DNA of 24,322 nt from a virus: the IMG/VR virus record IMGVR_UViG_3300020214_000120, positions 1-24,322 of that record; one strand, written 5' to 3'. The position numbers were made by a program, and so were the translations under genes. The notes beneath the pieces are model-generated. The model ran no database searches. It saw only the letters and a program-made list of their open reading frames with translations, and had not been told where the DNA came from. The number at the start of each line of letters is the position of its first letter. Within the stretch, counting starts at the first letter, position 1. Of this stretch, positions 7,670 to 22,111 are shown piece by piece.

Positions 7670-10600
7670 TTAGGTTCTCTCCCTGTAGGCGCGTTGCTGC
7701 TGCTCGAGCGCGGCCACGACCTGACGGGCGATGGCGGTCTCCGACTGGCCCGGTGCCCCGTAGACGTTCAGGGTGACGTTCTGGTTCATGGTCCCGGCCG
7801 TCCCGGCGACGAGGCTTGACCGCGGGGTTCTGGTGTTGCCGATCGGCGGGACGACGTGCAGGTGCCTGCTGCCGGCCCAGCCGTGGAACTCGGCGAAGCC
7901 CCCGGCGTTCGAGATCATCTTCTGGTACTGGCCGAGGTTGTCCCCGGTCAGGTCGTAGGCCCTCCCGGCGGCGTGGTCGGAGCTCATGGACCAGAGGTTG
8001 TCGAAGCGGAGCGCACTGGTGACGGTCCGCTTCCCCGTCAGCAAAGAGTTGAACTTTGCGTGGGCCGCCATCGTCCCCCTGAGCGCCCTGGAAGTCGGGG
8101 TGTCCCCGACCCGACCCCTGCGAGGGGATCTGGTGTCGCCCTCCACCAGTTTCAGCGTGTTTCCCGTTGCCTGCCACGTGTAGTTCTTCATGTCGCCCCA
8201 CCACTTCGGGGCTTCGCCCTCCCAGATTTCTGGCTTGTTGTCGAAGGCCGTCGTGATCGCGTTGCCTATTTCCTCGGCAAATTTCTTCGCATTTTGGTTC
8301 CACACGAGTCCGACGTCTCCCGCTACCTCGTAGACCTTGGAGGTCTCCGTGGCGAAAATCCCTTCGTCCAGCCGATCGGCACCAACACCAAGACCGGTCG
8401 GCTTCATAATTGCGGCTACCAGCGCCTTTCCGGCTGGGCCGACCTTCGACAGCTTGTCCAGATTGAGATTTCCGCCCTTGTCCAGTAATTGGCCCGTGCT
8501 GATGAAATTGAGGAGGTTCGTCTTCTCCTGGTCGCCAAATTTTTCGTCCCCGAAGATTTGGGTGATGATGCCCTTGAGCCTGTCGGCCGCTCCGAGGTTC
8601 TTGAACACGAACCCTTGCTCGGCCATGCCCCCCAAAATCTGTTGCATGCCGAGGCCCGAGATTTGCGATAGTTGCGTTTCGTACGCCGTTTGGGCCTCTG
8701 CCTGACCCTCGTTGGCGAACGAACCGAGCAGACCCGCGTCCATCTTTCCGAAAGCTCCCAGATTTCCCTGAGCGAAATCTCTGGTCGCCGAGAGAACGGC
8801 GAACAGGTTGTCGGGGTTGTCCGCCTGCGTGCTGGAGACGAGCAGCCTGGCGTAATCCCTGAAGTCGTCCATCGTGGCCGTTCCGCCCAGGCCCATCAGC
8901 CTCTCCTTGCTGGCAGTGAACGCCTGAACTTCCGCTCGCCTCTTGATCGATTCGTCGAACACGTTCAGCGACGCCGTGCCGATGTCCCTGATCGCCACTT
9001 TCATCTCGTCGACGGTCTTGCGAGTGACGAGGCCCAGCGCCCCGATCTGCTCGGTGAGCGATTTCGTCGGGTCGCCCAGGTCCACGTCCATCTTGGACCC
9101 GAGCGCCATGATCTCCTGCTCGGTCTTCCCGGTCATCTTGGCAAGGTGCCGGACCACGAAATTGCCGCGCTTCATCATGATGTCTGCGACCTCAAACCTG
9201 CCGAGACCCTCCTCGGGGAGGAACAGCTCGCCCCTTGCGCTTTTGCCCCTCGTCCCGCCCTCCGTGCCGCGCGCAAAGAAGTCCTCGGCCCTTCGTATCC
9301 TGGTGTTGGCGACTCTTTCGCCCGCTTCGTTGATCCTGAATCCGAGATTTTCTTCCTGGAACCCCGCCACCATGGCGTCAAAACTTTTCATCGCCTTGGT
9401 GTCGCCACCTTCCGCCTGCTTGAGGTACTCCTTCATCTTTTTGTATTCCGACTTCTTCATCACGCCGGTGTTCCTCATTCCCTTGAGGATCGTGGATCTG
9501 CTGGCGTTGAGGGCCATGTCCATTGCGAGAAGTTCGGAAGGCAGCGTTGACGTCGGCATATTCGCAATTTCTCGGTTGCCCGCGACTAGGGTTCCAATGC
9601 CCATTTCGGAGATCATCTTCTGCTGCTTGTCGATCTGGCTGATCCCTCTCTGGAAGCTGCTCCCCCCCGTGGCCTGGACCAACCTGCCCGTTTTCGGGTC
9701 GACCCTCGCGCCGACCATGGCCGCGACGATCTGACCGCTCATTCTTTCGCCGATGCCGGCACCGATCTTTTTGGCCTCCCTCTCGCGGTTGCCCTGCGCC
9801 CTGAAGTAGCCGACGATGCCGCCGATCAGCGCCGAGCCCCCGATGATCGCGGCCTTGGCGACCGGACCAGAAAGTCCAAAGACGGGGCCGAGCGTGTCGG
9901 AGATCGTCTTTCCGACGGCGGCGCCGGCGAGCGCCCCGCCCATCATGGACTTGCCCGTGCTTGTCGATTTCATCAGCGTCAGACCGGCGGCGATTCCCAT
10001 TCCTCGGGCCCCGAACATCGCCCCGATTCCGAGGGCGTTGTTGGCGGCCGACCGCATGTCCTTGTCGCCGATCTTTTCCGTCACCCCCGTGGAAAGGAGC
10101 ATGCCGCCCATCAACCCCATCATCGGGTTGAACGTTTTGCGCATGCTCGCCTGGGCGCTCTCGCCCAAGCCCTTGAACATGGCGCCGGTGCGACCCTTGA
10201 ACTGCTGCCTCGCGAACGCCCGTTCCGCCGCCCTCTTGGATTTGCCGCCGTCGTCCCTAATTTTGCCAGTTTCCTTGTCGACCCACTTTCCCGCGCCCTG
10301 CCTGTCCTTCTCCAACATCTCGTTGAACGCCGTCAACCTCGCCGTCTGCAGCGCGGTGGCTTGAAAGGGAGCCAAATCTCCCAACCCCATCCCAGCGGCG
10401 CCAGCGGCTAGTCGCGCCTGTTCCAAATCGGCCCCCATCCTCTTGCCGCTGAGGGTCTTGAAAATGCTCTCCCTCGTGACGGGACCCGTGCTCACGCCGT
10501 CGAAGGACCCCTGTATGGTGCCGCCACGCAAGAACTCCCTGAGGGTGCCCTTCCCGTACATGAGGTCCCTCTGGGCGTTCCGCATTTTCATGTGCTGCTC

Positions 10601-12877
10601 GACGACGGGGGCCTGTGCCGCCGCAATCAACTTGGCTTGCTTGTCCGCGGGGAGCATCATGAACGCCGCCGGACCGGCGGCGCCACCACGGCCGACGTAG
10701 GTGTTTCTGACATTTTGTTCGGCTGCTGCCAAATTGTTCCTCAGATTCACCGAGTTGAGGTCGCCACGATCTATAGCGTTGAATGCCTTATCGCCTAACA
10801 TGTAGGCTCGGTACGCCCCCAGGTCGGCGAAACCGGTCCTCTCAAAGCCGTTGCTCGCGAACGCCCGCACGTTTTTCCCGAGACCCATCATCTCCGCACC
10901 CTTGACCAAGGTTCTGTCGTAAACGAAAGTACCCGGGTCGTGGTACGACCTTCCCGCATCCTTCATGTTCTGGACATAGGCCACGTTGGCCGCGACCTCG
11001 GCTGGGGTCAGCCTCATGGTGGCGGCGTTACCCGTGTACCTTGACCTCGAGAACATAGCCGGGATGCCGCCGAACATGCTCCGGGGGGAATTACGCGCCC
11101 CGTAGACCGATGCCTGGTTCGTCAGGTCCTTGACCGTTCCGCCGCCGCCGCCCCTGCGCATCCTGTAGGCCGTCCTGCTTCCCTTGAACCCGCCGAACAT
11201 CAGGCCGAGGGTGAAGAGCGTGCCGATGCCCGGTCCGAGACCGCCTCCGACCGTTCCGCTGGGTCCGCCTCCGGATCCGCCCATGCCGAGGAACCCCCCA
11301 CCGCCCCCCAGTTTGAACGTTCCGATCCCCCTCACGAGTGACGCCATCCCGTTGATCAGTTTGGTGAGGATGTTCACGATCGAGGTGAGCACGGGCAGGG
11401 CCTCGGTGAAGGCGACCTTGAGCGCGGCGAACCAGTCGCCTATGGCGAAGATCAGCCTCTCGAGGGCGCTCCCCCAGGCCTTGAACTGCTCCTCGTTGTC
11501 CTCGGCGAGGTAGCCGAGCTGCTCGGCGTTCCTGCCGAAGATCCTGAATATGGCGAGCAGCGGACCCTTGAATGTCTCGGTGATTATCCGCGACCCCTCG
11601 CGGAACTTCTCAAGGGAGTTCTTGAACTGGTTGAACGACTTCATGAACGAGGCCGACGTCCTCTTGAACCACTGCGACGCTCCGAACAGCATCGGCAGGT
11701 ACTTCCTGACGAGGGTGACGGAGAATTTCTCGAGCGCGTTGCCTATCGTCGTGATCGCCGGGAACAGCTTGTTCTTCCCGAAGAAGGTGAACTCCGGCGC
11801 CAGTCTCGCGAACATGTTGCGCACGTTCTTGAACAGCCCGTCCAGCACCCTTCGCGCGTCGTTGAGGAACTGTTCTCCGAAGTCGGCCATGTCCGTCGCG
11901 AGGGCGACGGTTATCTGCTTGAACTGCGCGACGAGTGTCCCCTTCATCGACCCGAACTCGCCGCTGACGCCCGCCTGCTGGGCGAGCTTGCCGCTCGCCA
12001 TGGACGCCATGATGCTCGCCGCGTCCTTGCCCTTCGACTTCTTTATCGCCTCCGCGAACTCCTTGCTGACCCCCGACGCGGCCGTGCTCGCCTTGCCGGT
12101 GACCTTGCCCTCCTTCTGCAGTATCGCGACGAAGTTCGCCATCGCCTGGAACGACTTGGCCTGGTCCTGCGACCTGGCGGTGAAGTCCATGGCGCCGGAC
12201 AGCGCCTTGGTCTGCGCCCCGGTGACCCTGCCCTGCTGGGACATCGCCTTGTACGCCTGCGTCAGGTTCATGACGCCCATCGTCGCGAGGTTGGTGTCGG
12301 TGTACAGCCCCCTCATCGCGGCCGCCGCCGCCCCGGTCGCCGAGCCGTAGACGTTGGCGCCCTTGTACTGCCATGCCGAAGCCGCGGCGTTGAACTCCCT
12401 GAACGCCGCCACCGCAGTCGTCGCGGCCACGGCCACCGTGGCCAGCGCGGCTCCGACGGCTCCGAGGGCGAGGTTGTACCCCTTGGCCACTATCTTGCCG
12501 GCCTTGAACAACAGGTTGACCGACGCGAGCGTCGCCGCCGTTATCACGAACTCGGCGGCGAGGGCGATCAATTGGAAGAAGAGCAGTCTCGCCGCCTTCT
12601 TGAAAAAACCCATCACCCTCGCGCCCGCGGTAAGGTTCTTCTGGAGTCTCTTGCCGGAGTTGTCCAGCGCCGAGAATCTCTTCCTCATCGCGGCCATCGG
12701 CTCGTCGGCTTCCCTGGCCGTCCTCGACATCCGCCTCGTCGATTCCCTGAACCTGTCGCCGGATTCGCTCGCGCGATCGGCCGCCTCGGAGAACGCCTGT
12801 ATCTCGGCGAGGACCTGCGCCATGTCGCGGCGGTTCGCCTCGAAATCTATGCGTATTGTGACTATTTCGTCGGGCAA
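7670..12877 (-). CDS. Tail tape measure protein with C-terminal peptidase-like domain
   Basis: This is the largest gene, 1735 residues. The start is TTG at 12877 with GGGAG six to seven bases upstream. The protein has a coiled N-terminus (VLAEIQAFSEAADRASESGD), hydrophobic stretches around residues 95-160 and a glycine-rich block near 515-560. A glycine-zipper membrane-type segment lies near 960-1040 (AAIIGGSALIGGIVGYF), and long helices fill the rest. Length, alanine/glycine content and position between chaperone and baseplate genes identify the tape measure, which sets tail length and enters the envelope at infection. Near the end, residues 1633-1642 (SDHAAGRAYD) and 1671-1674 (RHLH) give the His/Asp and His-x-His pattern of M15/ARB_07466-like peptidoglycan peptidases. 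A usual tape measure tail (NVTLNVYGAPGQSETAIARQ) follows. The peptidase activity is inferred. Confidence 0.9.
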   Translation of the reverse strand: MPDEIVTIRIDFEANRRDMAQVLAEIQAFSEAADRASESGDRFRESTRRMSRTAREADEPMAAMRKRFSALDNSGKRLQKNLTAGARVMGFFKKAARLLFFQLIALAAEFVITAATLASVNLLFKAGKIVAKGYNLALGAVGAALATVAVAATTAVAAFREFNAAASAWQYKGANVYGSATGAAAAAMRGLYTDTNLATMGVMNLTQAYKAMSQQGRVTGAQTKALSGAMDFTARSQDQAKSFQAMANFVAILQKEGKVTGKASTAASGVSKEFAEAIKKSKGKDAASIMASMASGKLAQQAGVSGEFGSMKGTLVAQFKQITVALATDMADFGEQFLNDARRVLDGLFKNVRNMFARLAPEFTFFGKNKLFPAITTIGNALEKFSVTLVRKYLPMLFGASQWFKRTSASFMKSFNQFKNSLEKFREGSRIITETFKGPLLAIFRIFGRNAEQLGYLAEDNEEQFKAWGSALERLIFAIGDWFAALKVAFTEALPVLTSIVNILTKLINGMASLVRGIGTFKLGGGGGFLGMGGSGGGPSGTVGGGLGPGIGTLFTLGLMFGGFKGSRTAYRMRRGGGGGTVKDLTNQASVYGARNSPRSMFGGIPAMFSRSRYTGNAATMRLTPAEVAANVAYVQNMKDAGRSYHDPGTFVYDRTLVKGAEMMGLGKNVRAFASNGFERTGFADLGAYRAYMLGDKAFNAIDRGDLNSVNLRNNLAAAEQNVRNTYVGRGGAAGPAAFMMLPADKQAKLIAAAQAPVVEQHMKMRNAQRDLMYGKGTLREFLRGGTIQGSFDGVSTGPVTRESIFKTLSGKRMGADLEQARLAAGAAGMGLGDLAPFQATALQTARLTAFNEMLEKDRQGAGKWVDKETGKIRDDGGKSKRAAERAFARQQFKGRTGAMFKGLGESAQASMRKTFNPMMGLMGGMLLSTGVTEKIGDKDMRSAANNALGIGAMFGARGMGIAAGLTLMKSTSTGKSMMGGALAGAAVGKTISDTLGPVFGLSGPVAKAAIIGGSALIGGIVGYFRAQGNREREAKKIGAGIGERMSGQIVAAMVGARVDPKTGRLVQATGGSSFQRGISQIDKQQKMISEMGIGTLVAGNREIANMPTSTLPSELLAMDMALNASRSTILKGMRNTGVMKKSEYKKMKEYLKQAEGGDTKAMKSFDAMVAGFQEENLGFRINEAGERVANTRIRRAEDFFARGTEGGTRGKSARGELFLPEEGLGRFEVADIMMKRGNFVVRHLAKMTGKTEQEIMALGSKMDVDLGDPTKSLTEQIGALGLVTRKTVDEMKVAIRDIGTASLNVFDESIKRRAEVQAFTASKERLMGLGGTATMDDFRDYARLLVSSTQADNPDNLFAVLSATRDFAQGNLGAFGKMDAGLLGSFANEGQAEAQTAYETQLSQISGLGMQQILGGMAEQGFVFKNLGAADRLKGIITQIFGDEKFGDQEKTNLLNFISTGQLLDKGGNLNLDKLSKVGPAGKALVAAIMKPTGLGVGADRLDEGIFATETSKVYEVAGDVGLVWNQNAKKFAEEIGNAITTAFDNKPEIWEGEAPKWWGDMKNYTWQATGNTLKLVEGDTRSPRRGRVGDTPTSRALRGTMAAHAKFNSLLTGKRTVTSALRFDNLWSMSSDHAAGRAYDLTGDNLGQYQKMISNAGGFAEFHGWAGSRHLHVVPPIGNTRTPRSSLVAGTAGTMNQNVTLNVYGAPGQSETAIARQVVAALEQQQRAYRERT
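7800..8080 (-). other. M15/ARB_07466-like peptidase domain in the tape measure
   Basis: Approximate domain limits are residues 1600-1692 of the tape measure protein. Visible candidate zinc ligands are H1635 and D1642 in SDHAAGRAYD, and H1672/H1674 in SRHLHVVPP; E1663 in GGFAEFHGW is a candidate catalytic acid. The spacing 'S-x-H-x-x-G-x-A-x-D ... H-x-H' is the family signature. Such domains in tape measures are thought to open the peptidoglycan locally during DNA entry. The limits are by eye. Confidence 0.72.
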
Positions 12878-16752: not shown

Positions 16753-17465
16753 CTCAGCTCCAGCCCGCTCACGCCGTGATTGGCGGCGTACTTGGCGAAC
16801 ACGCTTCCGACCGCCTTCGCGAAGCCGGGCCGCTCAAAGACCAGCCTTCGCATCGGCATCTTCGTCGTTCCGTACTGGTGCCACGTGGAATATCTGACCT
16901 TGTTGCCGAACTCGACGGAGTCGTCCGTTATCTTGTCCGTGCTCAGCCCTATCGTCAGGCTCTCGAAGAGCTGACCCGTCGCCTGCATTGTGGGCTTGCC
17001 TGGGTATCTCAGCACCTTCCACGCACCGTAGGCCGGGCTCAGTGGCGCCCAGCCACCAGAGGGGAGACCGTTGCTCAGGAAGTTCTCGGCGAACATCAGC
17101 GCCACCTGCGGCTTTATGATCGTGATCGTGGGCGGAACGCACACCTGCGCGCGCCCGTACATCTTGGCCATCATGGTGTAGACGCCTACGAAGTGCGTGA
17201 GCGTCGGGTTGGAGCTGTTGGTGCGATCGTCGCCCATCTTGTGGATTCTCTTCTCGAGGGTCCTTATTGACCTGACCGTCCTCGCATAGCTCTTGTGATT
17301 CACCTTGACGTCTATGCCGAGGCTGACCCCCCTGCCCCTGACCCCGGAGGTCCGGACGAAGTCGCGGCCAGTCGTGTCGATCGGGGCGGCCTCCCTCACC
17401 TTGTCCCCGGTGCTCTTGCGAGTCCTCTTTATTTGCTTCCTCCGCGGAAACAATTCGTCGACCAT
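16749..17465 (-). CDS. Phage virion morphogenesis/neck protein (gpS / Mu gpG type)
   Basis: The protein has 238 residues; ATG at 17465 overlaps the previous stop by one base (TAATG). The C-terminal two thirds hold the typical virion-morphogenesis pattern: SNGLPSGGWAPLSPAYGAWK, then PGKPTMQATGQLFESLTIGL, VEFGNKVRYSTWHQYGTTKM and PMRRLVFERPGFAKAV. The elements 'W-x-P-L-S-x-x-Y', 'P-x-x-x-x-T-G-x-L-x-x-S-L', 'Y-x-x-x-H-Q-x-G' and 'P-x-R' are shared with P2 gpS, Mu gpG and HK97 gp10-like neck proteins, which complete the head-tail joint. The N-terminal 80 residues are very basic (RRKQIKRTRKSTGD) and longer than in relatives; perhaps they touch DNA or the connector. Gene order (connector, then this, then terminator) supports the call. 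Confidence 0.78.
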   Translation of the reverse strand: MVDELFPRRKQIKRTRKSTGDKVREAAPIDTTGRDFVRTSGVRGRGVSLGIDVKVNHKSYARTVRSIRTLEKRIHKMGDDRTNSSNPTLTHFVGVYTMMAKMYGRAQVCVPPTITIIKPQVALMFAENFLSNGLPSGGWAPLSPAYGAWKVLRYPGKPTMQATGQLFESLTIGLSTDKITDDSVEFGNKVRYSTWHQYGTTKMPMRRLVFERPGFAKAVGSVFAKYAANHGVSGLELR

Positions 17466-18328
17466 TACTTGGCGATCCTCCTGCGCCTGAAGATCTTGAG
17501 CGCCAGCAGTTCCTTCTCGAGGAATCCGGTCTCAAGGGTTGACACCCCGCGCGTCGTCAGGTCCTTCACGCCCACGGTGTCGTCGTGCATGTTCTGCATC
17601 TCCCTCGTCGCCGCCCTCAGGATCATGAGCTTCAGGACCTTGAGCTGCGACCCGTCGAGACCGCCCGAGTACTCGACCGTGAGCACGTCGTTCGGGAAGG
17701 CGGCGTACACCTCGAGACCCCACGGTAGGACCTTGTAGTCGGAGCCGGTCGCCTCGACCGACCCGCCGCTGGCGTAGGTCTGCCCGGCGACGTCGTGCTC
17801 GACGGTGAACGTCGTGTCGGTGACGGAGAGTATCTGCTTGTTCTGCAGGTTGAAATTGCTCGGGCTCGCCCCGTAAATCCTGAGGTACTGGCCGACCACG
17901 AAGTCGTTGTCCGCAGTGTAGACGACGTTCGCCCCGCTGACCGATGCACCGGTGACCGTTGCGTCCCTGCGCATCGCCTCGGCCAGGTTCCTGGGTGGCA
18001 TCGACGAGCTGCGGATGCTGACGCGCGTCACCGCGGCGACGGGGGAGTTGCGGAGGGCGATCATTATCGGACCCCTGATCACGTGACGGATCGGATCGTT
18101 CGTCGTGTCAAGACTCCTGTCGTACATGTACCCGGACTCGCTCGGAACGCCGAACTCGTACGACGAGGTGACGTGGTCCTCCACGAATTCGTCCACGGAC
18201 ACAGGGCGACCTAGGTATGCCTCAAGCTCGCCCTGCAGGCCCTCGAGGATCATCTCCGCGGCGTCCGTCTGCCTGTTCGTCAGGCTGATGTCCATGAAGG
18301 TTTTCAATTCGGCGACCGTTACGATCAT
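17465..18328 (-). CDS. Head-tail connector/adaptor protein with inserted beta module
   Basis: The protein has 287 residues with ATG at 18328. Residues 1-50 (VTVAELKTFMDISLTNRQTD, EMILEGLQGELEAYLGRPV) give the helical start of gp6/gp15-type connector proteins, which bind the portal. The final part (LKLMILRAATREMQNMHDDT, then TTRGVSTLETGFLEKELLAL and FRRRRIAK) is the connector C-terminal helix and basic tail. 'Y-x-x-G' strands and 'A-A-T-R-E-M' are typical. Residues about 122-194 are an insertion not found in small connectors (normally about 100-180 aa), which explains the extra length. It is followed by the neck gene with one-base overlap. Unusually, the genes before it are DNA-metabolism genes, not portal or capsid genes. 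Confidence 0.75.
   Translation of the reverse strand: MIVTVAELKTFMDISLTNRQTDAAEMILEGLQGELEAYLGRPVSVDEFVEDHVTSSYEFGVPSESGYMYDRSLDTTNDPIRHVIRGPIMIALRNSPVAAVTRVSIRSSSMPPRNLAEAMRRDATVTGASVSGANVVYTADNDFVVGQYLRIYGASPSNFNLQNKQILSVTDTTFTVEHDVAGQTYASGGSVEATGSDYKVLPWGLEVYAAFPNDVLTVEYSGGLDGSQLKVLKLMILRAATREMQNMHDDTVGVKDLTTRGVSTLETGFLEKELLALKIFRRRRIAK
17744..17965 (-). other. Inserted beta module in the head-tail connector
   Basis: Residues about 122-194 contain NVVYTADNDFVVGQYLRIYG, then ASPSNFNLQNKQILSVTDTT and FTVEHDVAGQTYASGGSVEA. The pattern aligns by eye with the module in baseplate J (3526-3753): 'V-G-x-x-[VL]-x-[VI]-x-G', then 'P-S-x-[YF]-N', then a 'V-T/S-x-x-x-T-x-[FL]-[TS]-x' strand, then 'A-G-[QT]-x ... 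V-x-x-x-G'. Likely a common beta unit placed on the outside of two different structural proteins. Confidence 0.65.
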
Positions 18329-18337
18329 GTCCGTTTT

Positions 18338-18694
18338 TTACTCCCTGGCGTCGCCGCCCCGTCTCCTTCGGTTCCTGAAACCGGCGTTGCGCAATGCTTC
18401 GGCGAGTCTGTTCGTGACGGCCCTGATCGCCCTTCGTATCAGTCCAGGGCGGGCGGTTTGTTCAGCCGGGGTCGTCGCCGGCGGGATCGAAGCCTCCACC
18501 GCCCTGTTGATTGCCGAGGTCGTCGTTTCGTTTTCCCTGATTGGGGGCAACGCTACCGGTGGAAGCGTGGACGGAAGAATGGCTCCCTGCTCCCGCAGCG
18601 TGGCCAGCACTCGCCTTAGCTCCGCCGCGAGCTTCGCTTGAGCCATCGGTGACGAAGGGCTGAGCTCGACAGCCATGGTTTTCTTAGGGGGCAT
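18338..18694 (-). CDS. Basic protein of unknown function upstream of the connector (118 aa)
   Basis: I do not recognise a family. ATG at 18694 has GGAGA six bases upstream. The N-terminal third is helical (MAQAKLAAELRRVLATLREQ), the middle is proline-rich (LPSTLPPVALPPIRENETT), and the C-terminus is a strongly basic helix (RPGLIRRAIRAVTNRLAEAL then RNAGFRNRRRRGGDARE). Such a tail could bind DNA or an acidic surface. It lies between ParB-like and connector genes, the junction between the DNA-metabolism and structural blocks, with a 63-base gap on its upstream side. It could be a small virion or DNA-packaging accessory protein; nothing in the sequence decides this. Confidence 0.6.
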   Translation of the reverse strand: MPPKKTMAVELSPSSPMAQAKLAAELRRVLATLREQGAILPSTLPPVALPPIRENETTTSAINRAVEASIPPATTPAEQTARPGLIRRAIRAVTNRLAEALRNAGFRNRRRRGGDARE

Positions 18695-18757: not shown

Positions 18758-19318
18758 CTACCTGTCGGGGTTCGGTGGCCTCTCGAACTGGGGCCTCTCG
18801 TCGTGACTCGCCTCTATTGGGATCCACGCCTTGGAGTACGAGTGCTCGGCGACCTTCCTCATTTTGACCAGCGACCCGTCCAGCAGGACCTGGAACTCGT
18901 CGGTGGTCATACCGAGGGTCAGCATCAGGGATTCCCTGCTGTGGGCGCCCGACTTGATTATGGTCCTGACCACGTGCGAGAGTCTTGCGTTCATGACCTG
19001 GCCCCTCGCCCTGTTCAGGGTGACGTGCATGATCATTGCCTCGGTCTCGGACAGGTTCGGGAAAACGACGACGGGGACGAAGCGACCCTCGATCATGAGT
19101 TGCGGCGTCGCACTTGCGAGCGCGAGCCTCTCGTGACCGTCGACCACCAGAAGCCCCCCGTCCTCGGCCTTGCCGCATGCGACAATCGGGAAGATCCACC
19201 CGTACCTGTGCAGCGAAGTGGCCAGCAGGCTCAAATCGGGTTTGACTATGTAGGTGGCGCGCCACGGGGCGCTCCTCAGGACGCTCGGTTCCAGCTTCTC
19301 GTACCGACCCTCACTCAT
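18758..19318 (-). CDS. ParB-like domain protein, short (186 aa), IbrB-like partner of PAPS-reductase-like protein
   Basis: The protein has 186 residues, with ATG at 19318 overlapping the stop of the PAPS-reductase-like gene by eight bases. Residues about 20-100 form a ParB-type domain: KPDLSLLATSLHRYGWIFPI, then LLVVDGHERLALASA and VPVVVFPNLSETEAMIMHVT. The motif DGHER (residues 60-64) corresponds to the GERR-like nucleotide-binding box of ParB/Srx folds. The C-terminal half is helical (LSHVVRTIIKSGAHSRESLM) and may bind DNA. Such proteins are encoded with PP-loop ATPase partners (IbrA/IbrB type) in bacteria and phages; a biochemical role for the pair is not settled. There is no ParA, centromere-like repeat or helix-turn-helix, so plasmid-type partition is unlikely. 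Confidence 0.8.
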   Translation of the reverse strand: MSEGRYEKLEPSVLRSAPWRATYIVKPDLSLLATSLHRYGWIFPIVACGKAEDGGLLVVDGHERLALASATPQLMIEGRFVPVVVFPNLSETEAMIMHVTLNRARGQVMNARLSHVVRTIIKSGAHSRESLMLTLGMTTDEFQVLLDGSLVKMRKVAEHSYSKAWIPIEASHDERPQFERPPNPDR

Positions 19319-20441
19319 CGCTTTCCTCTGCGTTCTCCCTCTTCGCTATTCCGAAGGCTTTCGTGCCCGGTCCCATCGGCGTCGGGGAGGCGGCGGTGAA
19401 CTCGTTCAGCAACAAGGTCCGAATCAACCAGTGGATCGGGTAGCTCTTCGGGTCGTTTCGCATCTTCATCCTGAACTTCGCGCAGAACGCCTTTGCGTAG
19501 TGACGGTCCGACTCGCTCATCATGTGATCGTCTATGCACGCCTTCACCCCGTCCCAACCGTAGCGGGCGTAGCCCATGATCAGCTTCTCGACGTCGTAGT
19601 CGGCCCACAGCCTCCGCTGGGCGTCGATCATCGGCCAAACCCTCTGCAGCTGGTCGAAGAAGAACGGTTCGGTGACCATGAGATCGCCCATCCTCCTCGC
19701 CGCCACGCAGTACAGGGGTATGCCGACCCTCGTGTTCGATCCGGTCATCGCGGCGACGTCGTAGTACTCGCAGTACTCCGCGCCGTGCTCCTCGGCGACG
19801 AACCTGAGCACGTCGTCGCTCGTCCAGTCGTAGATTATCTTCGCAAACCTCAGCGGGAGGTTCCTGGGCGCCTTGTACGGTGCGACGATGTAGTTCTCGT
19901 GAAGCTTCTGGACGAGGGACCTGTACCTGACCATGGATTCGTTCGCCCTCACGCCCGTCAGGAAGGCCGTCCTCCCCTTCTTGCCCTGCATGGTCCAATA
20001 GTCGGTGTCCCCCATATCCTTGTCCCTGCTTAGCCCGAACGATTCCGCGTTTATGGCGAATTTCGGCATCGGCCTGACGAGACGACCCTCCTTCTCCCTC
20101 AATCCGGACCAGGTCATCTCGGTCGTTCTCTTGCCCATTGACCACACCTCAACCCCGACGGAGAGGCAGTACCACTCCATCTCTACCCAGTCATAGTTCC
20201 TGACCTTCTCCACGAAATCTATGACCATCGGACTGACCATCTCCTCGTCCCTGAATATCGCCCTGACGGGACCGAGACCGCGCTCCTCGTGCAACTCCTT
20301 GGCGAGGTGGAGCACGGCCGTCGAGTCCTTGCCCCCGGAGAACTGCACGCAGACCGTGTCGAACGTGTCGTAGACGTGCCTGATCCTCTTTCTCGCCGCG
20401 TCCACGCATGTCATGTCAAGGTAGAGGCGCTTGCGCGGCAT
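19311..20441 (-). CDS. PAPS-reductase-like PP-loop protein (IbrA/DndC-like)
   Basis: The start at ATG 20441 (MPRKRLYLDM) is chosen because GGAG lies five to six bases upstream and the codon overlaps the preceding stop as TGATG; a longer frame starting at 20543 overlaps the upstream gene and lacks this support. The 376-residue protein has the PP-loop FSGGKDSTAVLHLA (SGGKDS at residues 35-40), the following HLAKELHEERGLGPVRAIF, and further on TAFLTGVRANESMVRYRSL, where 'G-V-R-A-x-E-S-x-x-R' is the second PAPS-reductase signature. This family uses ATP pyrophosphatase chemistry, adenylating a substrate. A sulfur role (PAPS reduction, DndC phosphorothioation) is known only for some relatives; no Fe-S cysteine motif stands out here. 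It is sandwiched between two ParB-like genes with 1- and 8-nt overlaps. Confidence 0.85.
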   Translation of the reverse strand: MPRKRLYLDMTCVDAARKRIRHVYDTFDTVCVQFSGGKDSTAVLHLAKELHEERGLGPVRAIFRDEEMVSPMVIDFVEKVRNYDWVEMEWYCLSVGVEVWSMGKRTTEMTWSGLREKEGRLVRPMPKFAINAESFGLSRDKDMGDTDYWTMQGKKGRTAFLTGVRANESMVRYRSLVQKLHENYIVAPYKAPRNLPLRFAKIIYDWTSDDVLRFVAEEHGAEYCEYYDVAAMTGSNTRVGIPLYCVAARRMGDLMVTEPFFFDQLQRVWPMIDAQRRLWADYDVEKLIMGYARYGWDGVKACIDDHMMSESDRHYAKAFCAKFRMKMRNDPKSYPIHWLIRTLLLNEFTAASPTPMGPGTKAFGIAKRENAEESDE

Positions 20442-21238
20442 CAGAACTCCGCGTTCGTGCTTATGAAGTCGATCAGCTTGGATGCCGTGGTCTCGCCGAC
20501 GTATGCGGGGTCGTTCCTCAGGTACCTGATGAAGTCGTACCATCTCTTTTGTTGCACGGCGTCGTCGAACACGAGCGTGTACTGCACTATCGCCCTCTCC
20601 CCGCCCCTGACGCCGACCGCCGTGCTTCCCCTCGTGATCGCCTCCTCCTTGTCAACCGAGTCCGTCGCGATGTAGTCGATTTCGTCATTTTCGTTTTTCG
20701 TCTCGACGATCCGTTCGTCGTCTGCGGTCTGGAACGGGTTGACTATCACCGCCGGCGTGTACCCGCCCCGGTTGTCGTTCCTTTCGTTGGTGATGATGTC
20801 CATGTTTATGGAGGCGACCTCGAACTCGTCCCAGCCGAGACCGAGAAGCAGGTCCGGATAGTCCGAGGAGATCTCCGATATGAGGTCGAGCACGACCTGC
20901 TGGTCGGTGTTTCCCAACTCCGTCGTCCTGTTGTCGGCGAGGGCGAACGCATGACCGCGACTTTCGTCGACGTCGTAAACGATCGCCGCCATTTTTTTCC
21001 ATCCCAGCTTCTTGGCGGCGATCAGCTGGTGATTGCCGGCTATCACCGAGTACTTTCCGTCCCCGGCGGGCATGACGACTATCGGCTTTATTTGTCCGAA
21101 CTCCTTGTAGGAGGCGACGATTGACTCGATGTTGCCGATGCGTGGGTTCTTCTCCATCGGCCTGAGCAGGTCGATGCTGACGGCGAGCCCAGCGAGGGAG
21201 GGGTGGATGTTCCCGTCGTCGTTGTTTTCGTCGTTCAC
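20441..21238 (-). CDS. ParB-like domain protein, long (265 aa)
   Basis: The protein has 265 residues; GTG at 21238 overlaps the previous stop (GTGA). Residues about 18-130 form the ParB-like domain of the type also found before DNA methyltransferases: VSIDLLRPMEKNPRIGNIES, then IVASYKEFGQIKPIVVMPAG, KYSVIAGNHQLIAAKKLGW and AFALADNRTTELGNTDQQV. The box normally ending in arginine (GNHR) reads GNHQ here, with Q71 in place of the expected residue. Residues 130-265 are unassigned: acidic middle (VETKNENDEIDYIATDSVD) and end (FDDAVQQKRWYDFIRYLRND). Together with the PAPS-reductase-like protein and the 186-aa ParB-like protein it forms a three-gene cassette. No helix-turn-helix is evident. Confidence 0.8.
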   Translation of the reverse strand: MNDENNDDGNIHPSLAGLAVSIDLLRPMEKNPRIGNIESIVASYKEFGQIKPIVVMPAGDGKYSVIAGNHQLIAAKKLGWKKMAAIVYDVDESRGHAFALADNRTTELGNTDQQVVLDLISEISSDYPDLLLGLGWDEFEVASINMDIITNERNDNRGGYTPAVIVNPFQTADDERIVETKNENDEIDYIATDSVDKEEAITRGSTAVGVRGGERAIVQYTLVFDDAVQQKRWYDFIRYLRNDPAYVGETTASKLIDFISTNAEF

Positions 21239-21573
21239 ACTTGTGCCCTGACGTTTGCGTTCAGCGTCCTGAGCGCGTCGATTGAGGTTCTCAGCGACAG
21301 CAGCTTCTCCCTCTTCGCCTTGACGAGGGCCTCGGAGATCTTGTAGTCGTAGTTCTCGTCGTTCATCTGGTAGTCGGCCCAGGCCTCGCGCTCCTTGATG
21401 GAACCCTTGGCGGCGAGGTACGACTTCGCCCAGTTCGCCTTGTACTTGGCCTCCTTCTTTGCGGAGTCCATGGAGAGCGTCTCAAAGGCCTCGGTCTCGC
21501 CCTCGAGGAGTTCCATCAGACGAAGGAGTTCCTCCTCAACTTCAACCTGGCTAATCGGAGTACTGCGAGTCAC
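21235..21573 (-). CDS. Small coiled-coil protein of unknown function (112 aa)
   Basis: GTG at 21573 is preferred because AAGGAAGG lies four to five bases upstream; a TTG at 21597 is possible but has no ribosome site. The protein is almost all helical and charged: QVEVEEELLRLMELLEGETE, then KKEAKYKANWAKSYLAAKGS, IKEREAWADYQMND and ALVKAKREKLLSLRTSIDAL. The heptad-like pattern suggests a coiled coil. Small helical proteins of this style are common next to recombination genes of phages, but I cannot assign a function. It starts inside the end of the RuvC-like gene (23 nt overlap) and its stop overlaps the ParB-like start (GTGA), so it is translated with both. Confidence 0.72.
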   Translation of the reverse strand: MTRSTPISQVEVEEELLRLMELLEGETEAFETLSMDSAKKEAKYKANWAKSYLAAKGSIKEREAWADYQMNDENYDYKISEALVKAKREKLLSLRTSIDALRTLNANVRAQV

Positions 21574-22111
21574 TGCACCTTCCTTCGTAGTTGTCAACGG
21601 GCGACCAGTCGACCCCGTCGGCGACGGCTCGGCTTGCCTCGGGCCAATCGTACCTTGCTTCGCCGTGCCTAATCAATGCCATTTCCTCCAGTATCCATGC
21701 GTCGCACATGTCGTCGGCGCCGGGACCGGCCCACGCAATCCCCGTCCTGGCTGAGACGGCGGAAACGACCTCGCTCTTTGAGGAGTTGCCCTTTCCCGTG
21801 GCGAATTTGGCCCTCGTCGTCGGCGCCACCTCAACGAAAGGTATGTTGGCGGAGCAGAGGACGTACCTCACTACCCCGCCGAGCTCGCCGATTGAGAACG
21901 CCTGGCCCGAACGGGCGGCGAACGCGTAGCCTTCCAGGACGACGGCGGTCACGCGGTGAAAGCGGACGAGCTCCATCACGGTGGTTGATATGTCGATGAG
22001 CCTCTGCGTGCCTCTGCTCTTCGGGATTATTGCGCCCCGGGAATCTCGCACCGACCACCCCGTGGACGAGAGGGACAAATCCAGCCCCATGAACATTTTT
22101 TCTTTTGCCAC
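21551..22111 (-). CDS. RuvC-like Holliday junction resolvase
   Basis: The protein has 186 residues. GTG at 22111 gives MAKEKMFMGLDLSLSSTGWS; ATG at 22096 or 22090 are alternatives and none has a strong ribosome site. The RNase H-type fold is clear: first acidic residue D11 in GLDLSLSSTGW, E60 in VVLEGYAFAARSGQAFS, helix IGELGGVVRYVL, then PTTRAKFATGKGNSSKSEVV and the C-terminal pair in GADDMCDAWIL (D134 and D137). These are the four catalytic positions of RuvC. It would resolve branched DNA during recombination or before packaging. It stands downstream of an annealing protein, a RecB-like nuclease and an HNH nuclease. The last 40 residues beyond the nuclease core are acidic and specific to this protein. 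Confidence 0.88.
   Translation of the reverse strand: MAKEKMFMGLDLSLSSTGWSVRDSRGAIIPKSRGTQRLIDISTTVMELVRFHRVTAVVLEGYAFAARSGQAFSIGELGGVVRYVLCSANIPFVEVAPTTRAKFATGKGNSSKSEVVSAVSARTGIAWAGPGADDMCDAWILEEMALIRHGEARYDWPEASRAVADGVDWSPVDNYEGRCSDSQYSD

Follow-up and report, generated by a model that had tools for sequence, protein, structure and literature searches.

A 24,322-bp virus fragment, IMG/VR record IMGVR_UViG_3300020214_000120 (the whole of which is called the window here), encodes on its - strand three overlapping genes in which a PP-loop ATP pyrophosphatase-like protein of the IbrA/YbdN family stands between two different ParB-type proteins, ParB1 and ParB2. We propose that these genes form a phage DNA-modification cassette, in which the PP-loop protein would adenylate a substrate, ParB2 would serve as its partner and ParB1 would bring the pair to DNA by way of a dedicated C-terminal tail; from the sequence comparisons below we judge this reading to be on balance probable, if far from secure. 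We favor it because the pair takes the place of TGT- or TET-containing operons in one genomic slot of Bclasvirinae mycobacteriophages, because the ParB1 tail goes with PP-loop partners and is absent from the ParB1 proteins of TGT/TET operons, because the trio is retained together in related records of at least 60 kb, because the PP-loop proteins linked to ParB1 group in a phylogenetic tree, because other members of the family are paired with an SNF2-type helicase, another DNA-acting partner, and because the CmoY and Tonitrus systems provide precedents.

The three genes and their protein families

The three genes encode ParB1 (265 amino acids, GTG start, positions 20441..21238), the PP-loop protein (376 amino acids, 19311..20441) and ParB2 (186 amino acids, 18758..19318). 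An earlier note on this DNA had described them as a translationally coupled cassette, and both overlaps are real: ParB1 and the PP-loop gene share 1 nt in a TGATG stop/start at 20441, which places the PP-loop start at this ATG rather than at the mechanically called 20543, and the PP-loop gene and ParB2 share 8 nt (ATGAGTGA, 19311..19318), with a Shine-Dalgarno-like AGAGGAAAG preceding the ParB2 ATG inside ATGAGTGA. The trio is not alone in being coupled, however: ParB1 also shares 4 nt (21235-21238) with the 120-amino-acid open reading frame (ORF) before it, so that coupling reaches further upstream. The placing of a PP-loop protein between two different ParB-type proteins is borne out by matches to PF01507, PF02195 and PHROG 2159 and by profile comparison.

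The PP-loop protein matches PF01507 (E=7e-9) and PHROG 2302 (E=3e-71), and YbdN of Escherichia coli matches a profile of the window and isolate PP-loop proteins over positions 1-374 (E=2.8e-97), indicating full-length homology. In its SGGKDS motif (amino acids 35-40, 20322..20339) S35, G37, K38, D39 and S40 are invariant in an alignment of 16 diverse members. The ECG motif of 3'-phosphoadenosine-5'-phosphosulfate (PAPS) reductases is found in none of the 33 and none of the 16 members of two alignments, nor in YbdN; the aligned family has neither a CxxC motif nor an invariant cysteine, and the Hendrix protein has no cysteine at all. A sequence search of the PDB returned no informative relative. 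In a fold search, the structural model (predicted local distance difference test, pLDDT, 81; predicted TM-score, pTM, 0.72) matched CysH first, then FMN adenylyltransferase/FAD synthase, TilS and CysD with probability 1.0, at low TM-scores and in its N-terminal part only, which a helical C-terminal part follows. These folds have in common that the alpha-phosphate of ATP is attacked, and an adenylating PP-loop enzyme that does not reduce PAPS is the likely catalyst. In one relative (L248:4746-6857) a LAGLIDADG intein interrupts the PP-loop gene at the Cys of a conserved EWYC motif; the long ORF there had been considered as a Rosetta-stone fusion, which was rejected in favor of the intein insertion. 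Inteins typically occupy conserved sites of important proteins.

ParB2 has no match in a Pfam search, and its ParB-fold assignment comes from ParB-like PHROG 2159 (E=1.3e-24) and a profile-to-profile comparison with ParB1 (101 aligned columns, probability 94.9%). YbdM matches the ParB2 profile with E=6e-55. By its sequence, ParB2 falls into a subgroup distinct from ParB1 with the signature D-G-F-H-R, which in the window takes the form of a putative nucleotide-binding motif, DGHER (amino acids 60-64, 19127..19141), whose D60, G61 and R64 are invariant. ParB1 carries a ParB_N/Srx domain with nucleotide-binding motifs, assigned by PF02195 (E=3e-11; NCBIfam parB_part falls below its cut-off) and by a fold search, in which its AlphaFold model resembles the N-domains of the CTP hydrolases (CTPases) Noc and ParB. 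This N-terminal domain, similar to nucleoside triphosphatases (NTPases), spans amino acids 11-119 (20882..21208) in an hmmsearch against isolates and contains FGQ and AGNHQ motifs with invariant residues. The C-terminal tail covers amino acids ~211-260 (20459..20608).

The PP-loop/ParB2 core thus belongs, on full-length similarity, to the uncharacterised IbrA-IbrB (YbdN-YbdM) family, with which it also shares gene order and overlapping reading frames. It differs in that the phage type adds a ParB1 with a specific tail and has its own well-supported PP-loop lineage. The suggestion of an undescribed system was too strong, given that the core is a named pair and the gene order is present in deposited phage genomes; as far as the literature searched shows, what is new here is the placement in a modification slot and the ParB1 tail. 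That search found no description of either, did not extend to subscription papers such as the original IbrA/IbrB work, and in a paper on BREX encountered BrxP/DpdB parallels only.

The modification slot, the ParB1 tail and co-retention

At the left genome end of Bclasvirinae mycobacteriophages the order is ParB1, variable genes, terminase, RuvC and portal. The variable slot holds TGT, QueC, QueD, QueE and GTP cyclohydrolase (FolE) in Hedgerow and Quesadilla, and TGT in Reprobate. By Pfam matches, which for the TET-like oxygenases lie below the curated cut-off, it holds a TET-like oxygenase with an ADDT amino-acid:DNA transferase in LilMcDreamy and Bane2, a TET-like oxygenase alone, ahead of the gene in the TerS position, in ChrisnMich, and a TET-like oxygenase with a TET-associated glycosyltransferase (TAGT) and PIG-L in Rich. 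In AlanGrant, ParB1 is fused to a domain resembling DNA methylases (below cut-off), and a pyridoxal-phosphate enzyme is also present. In Phlyer the slot is occupied by two small ORFs, the PP-loop gene and ParB2. DNA-modification genes are therefore present in eight of the sampled genomes and the PP-loop/ParB2 pair in the ninth, an exchange that we regard as the strongest argument that the pair may modify DNA. Rosebush is the type member of the genus to which Hedgerow belongs and carries 2'-deoxy-preQ0 (dPreQ0) at ~28% of G (PMC6884629).

The ~50-residue tail is detected by profile in the ParB1 proteins of Salgado, Phlyer, prophi79-1 (both copies) and Bacillus phage 031MP004, and weakly in that of L338C. 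The same profile finds no match in eight Bclasvirinae gene-1 ParB proteins without a PP-loop partner (Hedgerow, Quesadilla, Reprobate, Bane2, ChrisnMich, LilMcDreamy, Rich and AlanGrant). When two different tails were searched by tblastn against 50,697 phage records, matches fell in Mycobacterium (52), Arthrobacter (12) and Bacillus (6) phages, beside three weak Paenibacillus phage matches that we judged to be chance. PP-loop proteins occur in 55, 12 and 6 records of the same three genera, the two lists having been compared by genus and visible accessions rather than record by record. ParB_N occurs in 356 phage records and the PP-loop protein in 213, which had suggested that ParB1 is an unrelated neighbor, a reading that was rejected after the tail analysis. 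A role of the cassette in partition is disfavored because a ParA-type ATPase (PF13614) scored above cut-off in just 1 of 37 records; the earlier note had seen no partition system in the window.

Among viral contigs, 210 of 211 pattern matches were confirmed as relatives of the PP-loop protein. To collect the window's lineage without relying on the cassette itself, searches started from RuvC and the head-tail adaptor. A search for the same gene order, named beforehand as a check, found the order RuvC, 120-amino-acid ORF, ParB1, PP-loop, ParB2 and adaptor in dozens of related contigs, and the three-gene order recurs in unrelated isolates, so that the double-ParB cassette had to be rejected as a unique arrangement. 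Of 29 records of at least 60 kb, 28 contain the PP-loop gene, all 29 contain ParB2 and 27 contain ParB1; among the 24 picked by RuvC or adaptor the counts are 23, 24 and 23. The trio is kept even without synteny, since the genes are present though tens of kb apart: ~60-70 kb separate PP-loop from ParB2 in three genomes (G020, G021 and G023), and ParB1 lies ~45-50 kb away from the pair in two others (G027 and G029). A second layout in the lineage has ParB2 alone at the adaptor locus, and in a dispersed layout (L015:9772-11733) an SNF2-type helicase lies near a solitary PP-loop gene.

The order ParB - PP-loop - ParB is found in Arthrobacter phage Salgado (gp5-7), Mycobacterium phage Phlyer (gp1 as ParB1, gp4-5 as PP-loop and ParB2, annotated IbrA/IbrB), M. 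abscessus prophage prophi79-1, Rhizobium phage L338C and Bacillus phage 031MP004. These isolate cassettes share with the window the three families, their order and a tail-bearing ParB1. Their PP-loop proteins are, however, only 22-36% identical to the window's, small genes or (inside that of 031MP004) a methyltransferase intervene in some, and they stand beside the terminase (adjoining it in Salgado and Phlyer, near it in prophi79-1), whereas the window's cassette lies by the head-tail adaptor. The absence of a methyltransferase noted earlier holds for the window; the contig, however, is a fragment of just 24 kb, and a methyltransferase is present in some relatives.

Instead of ParB1, a helicase of SNF2 or superfamily 2 (SF2) type accompanies the pair in phages of Streptococcus, Lactobacillus, Flavobacterium and Pseudomonas; the neighbor named 'DNA helicase' in PY/CHPC phages is this SNF2-type partner. 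In many phages and bacteria (L311, L325, L327, L336, L100, L098 and L094) an SNF2-type helicase of ~400 amino acids precedes the IbrA/IbrB pair in the place of ParB1. Bacterial PP-loop loci have ParB2 adjacent in 71 of 76 cases, a helicase being present as well in 10 of these and a ParB1-like gene in 4. In E. coli K-12 the pair is ybdN-ybdM (L349, NC_000913.3:634747-636569), and 561 plasmid records contain a PP-loop relative, usually annotated PAPS reductase (Klebsiella 317, Escherichia 170, also Salmonella). In a maximum-likelihood tree the ParB1-linked PP-loop proteins lie on one side of a branch (93/92), and a group of 11 phage members, the window's among them, is supported at 100/100; in it, two rows (L011 and L042) are labeled by lineage and do not have ParB1 adjacent.

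Other ParB-headed modification operons (Rosebush dPreQ0, TET/ADDT, Tonitrus and CmoX/CmoY) likewise have a ParB_N protein adjoining base-modifying enzymes, although none of their catalytic genes is related to the pair in the window, except that CmoY, an ATP-dependent, asparagine-synthetase-like enzyme, is like the PP-loop protein a member of the broad ATP-pyrophosphatase class; their ParB1 lacks the tail. This asparagine-synthetase homologue, thought to use an adenylate, amidates the phage base 5-carboxymethylcytosine, and ParBc proteins are frequent on the contigs that encode it (PMC12783734); in Tonitrus, a ParB gene comes first in a thymine-hypermodification operon (PMC11955845).

Proposed DNA modification and its rivals

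The earlier note had kept three options open: modification of DNA or of nucleotides, a signal of the adenylation type, or a take-over of the host. The slot exchange with TGT/TET operons makes DNA modification the best supported of these, with take-over and a signal kept as rivals. In the proposed mechanism, the PP-loop protein would use ATP to adenylate a substrate, presumably on DNA, with ParB2 as its obligate nucleotide-binding partner. Access to DNA would be given by ParB1, as a ParB-type NTPase docking the pair through its tail, or by the helicase where that is the partner, and the modified phage DNA would be protected from host nucleases at or before packaging. More broadly, ParB1 might load phage DNA-modifying enzymes in general and have a C-terminus that can be exchanged: some phages would have it fused to a methyltransferase, others tail-less with TGT/TET enzymes, and here it would recruit IbrA-IbrB by its tail to install an undescribed modification. 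Many of the genes annotated as viral 'cysH' would, on that reading, serve DNA modification. We put this forward tentatively, as a possibility that we think more apt to fail than to hold.

Several points weigh against DNA modification. The main one is that we know of no extra DNA mark in E. coli K-12 despite its ybdN-ybdM, although this operon is repressed by CitR (PMC9068703) and lacks a ParB1 partner; the K-12 case speaks for a pair that may be unable to mark DNA by itself, may be silent or may need ParB1 or a helicase. In many bacterial chromosomes, moreover, the pair is found by itself, with modification genes absent from its surroundings, and IbrA/IbrB take their name from the activation of prophage gene expression. 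No chemical evidence, such as liquid chromatography-mass spectrometry data on virion DNA, was found for any carrier phage in the literature searched. The slot argument is limited to one phage subfamily and nine sampled genomes, and co-retention in related phages may mean merely that these are three core genes. In the window's own lineage the slot test gave no support, the extra genes being mostly small unknown ORFs whose identities were not scanned. A Tet_JBP match in the sole record without PP-loop and ParB1 (G008) had been considered as a replacement; its region has a long repetitive ORF with several hydroxylase-like ORFs next to it, which by eye are generic 2-oxoglutarate oxygenases, and the idea was rejected.

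A sulfur-based DNA modification, in which the PP-loop protein, as a sulfurtransferase of the DndC/SspD kind, would take sulfur from host IscS to make a phosphorothioate or thiolated base, appears unlikely. Dnd/Ssp phosphorothioation (DndB/DndC) similarly combines a PP-loop PAPS_reduct protein with a ParB-fold NTPase, and the PP-loop protein has weak DndC profile matches (TIGR03183, E=1e-5; PADLOC DndC, 3e-6), but its score is far under the cut-off (24.4 vs 290.4 bits) and neither DndA nor DndD/E is seen in the window. A DndC link was proposed by Dedrick et al. for the PAPS-reductase-like gene of an M. abscessus prophage (PMC8092301). Deletion of citR derepresses ybdNM while several cys genes rise 2.0-2.8 log2 (PMC9068703), which may hint at a sulfur drain, though other causes are possible. 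Sulfur chemistry is made less likely by the lack of a conserved cysteine and of a cysteine desulfurase (PF00266 in 0 of 36 phage records), for which host IscS could substitute.

A transcriptional or host take-over regulator, with IbrA/IbrB co-activating gene expression and ParB1 as the DNA-binding component, is about equally doubtful. Isolate annotations read 'co-activator of prophage gene expression', cro-like and antirepressor genes are found within a few genes of the pair in phages of Streptococcus and Lactobacillus, and ParB-fold proteins can act as regulators. This would nevertheless leave unexplained the TGT/TET exchange, the invariant PP-loop catalytic motif and the intein in a conserved motif.

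Modification of nucleotides, RNA or protein, or production of a small-molecule signal, in place of DNA modification, seems less probable again. TilS and other tRNA-modifying enzymes have the PP-loop fold, the serine kinase SerK is among ParB/Srx relatives and PP-loop/ParB2 pairs stand alone in chromosomes, but the DNA-acting partners, namely ParB1, the SNF2-type helicase and the slot neighbors, indicate DNA. Finally, a metabolic role, in which viral cysH would be an auxiliary gene whose PAPS reductase aids host sulfate assimilation, is very improbable despite the RefSeq and PHROGs names and the first rank of CysH in the fold search, given the missing ECG motif and conserved cysteine, the coupling to ParB genes, the breadth of PF01507, which also spans ATP sulfurylase-type enzymes, and the equal fold matches of FAD synthase and CysD.

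Flanking genes and implications

Along the - strand the window reads PD-(D/E)XK exonuclease, HNH, RuvC-like resolvase, 120-amino-acid ORF, ParB1, PP-loop protein, ParB2, 118-amino-acid ORF, head-tail adaptor and tail genes. The RuvC-like resolvase (21551..22111; PF02075, E=1e-6) is a conserved neighbor and is also found beside the slot in Bclasvirinae. The 120-amino-acid ORF in the RuvC-ParB1 gap (21235..21597; PHROG 1389), conserved beside ParB1 throughout the lineage, has a probable GTG start at 21573 behind AAGGAAGG, which would give 112 amino acids. The head-tail adaptor (17465..18328; PHROG 442) anchors the locus downstream, and the 118-amino-acid ORF between it and ParB2 (18338-18694) heads the largest slot-ORF cluster of the lineage (59 members). 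Two other slot genes (L138:10094-10561 and L190:10986-11753) read, by eye only, like a deoxycytidylate (dCMP) deaminase and a ThyX-type thymidylate synthase. Elsewhere in the window, a tape-measure-like protein of 1735 amino acids (7670-12877) has no Pfam match and a C-terminus that reads like an M15-type peptidase (DHAAGRAYDLTG...HLHV).

Carrier phages of M. smegmatis exist in culture. If the DNA-modification reading is true, the functionless IbrA/IbrB and YbdN/YbdM pair would gain a testable role, and the recurrence of ParB-like proteins beside phage DNA-modification genes, called unexplained in PMC12783734, would be accounted for. Viral 'cysH' is reported to be among the commonest sulfur-cycle auxiliary genes: it was present at 65% of stations in Baltic sediment and, like dcm, folE and queC/D/E, is counted among the globally conserved ones (PMC9301287). 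Ecological readings of viral 'cysH' may need revision, as at least the IbrA-type members lack the catalytic PAPS reductase cysteine and are found beside genes for ParB proteins and DNA modification.

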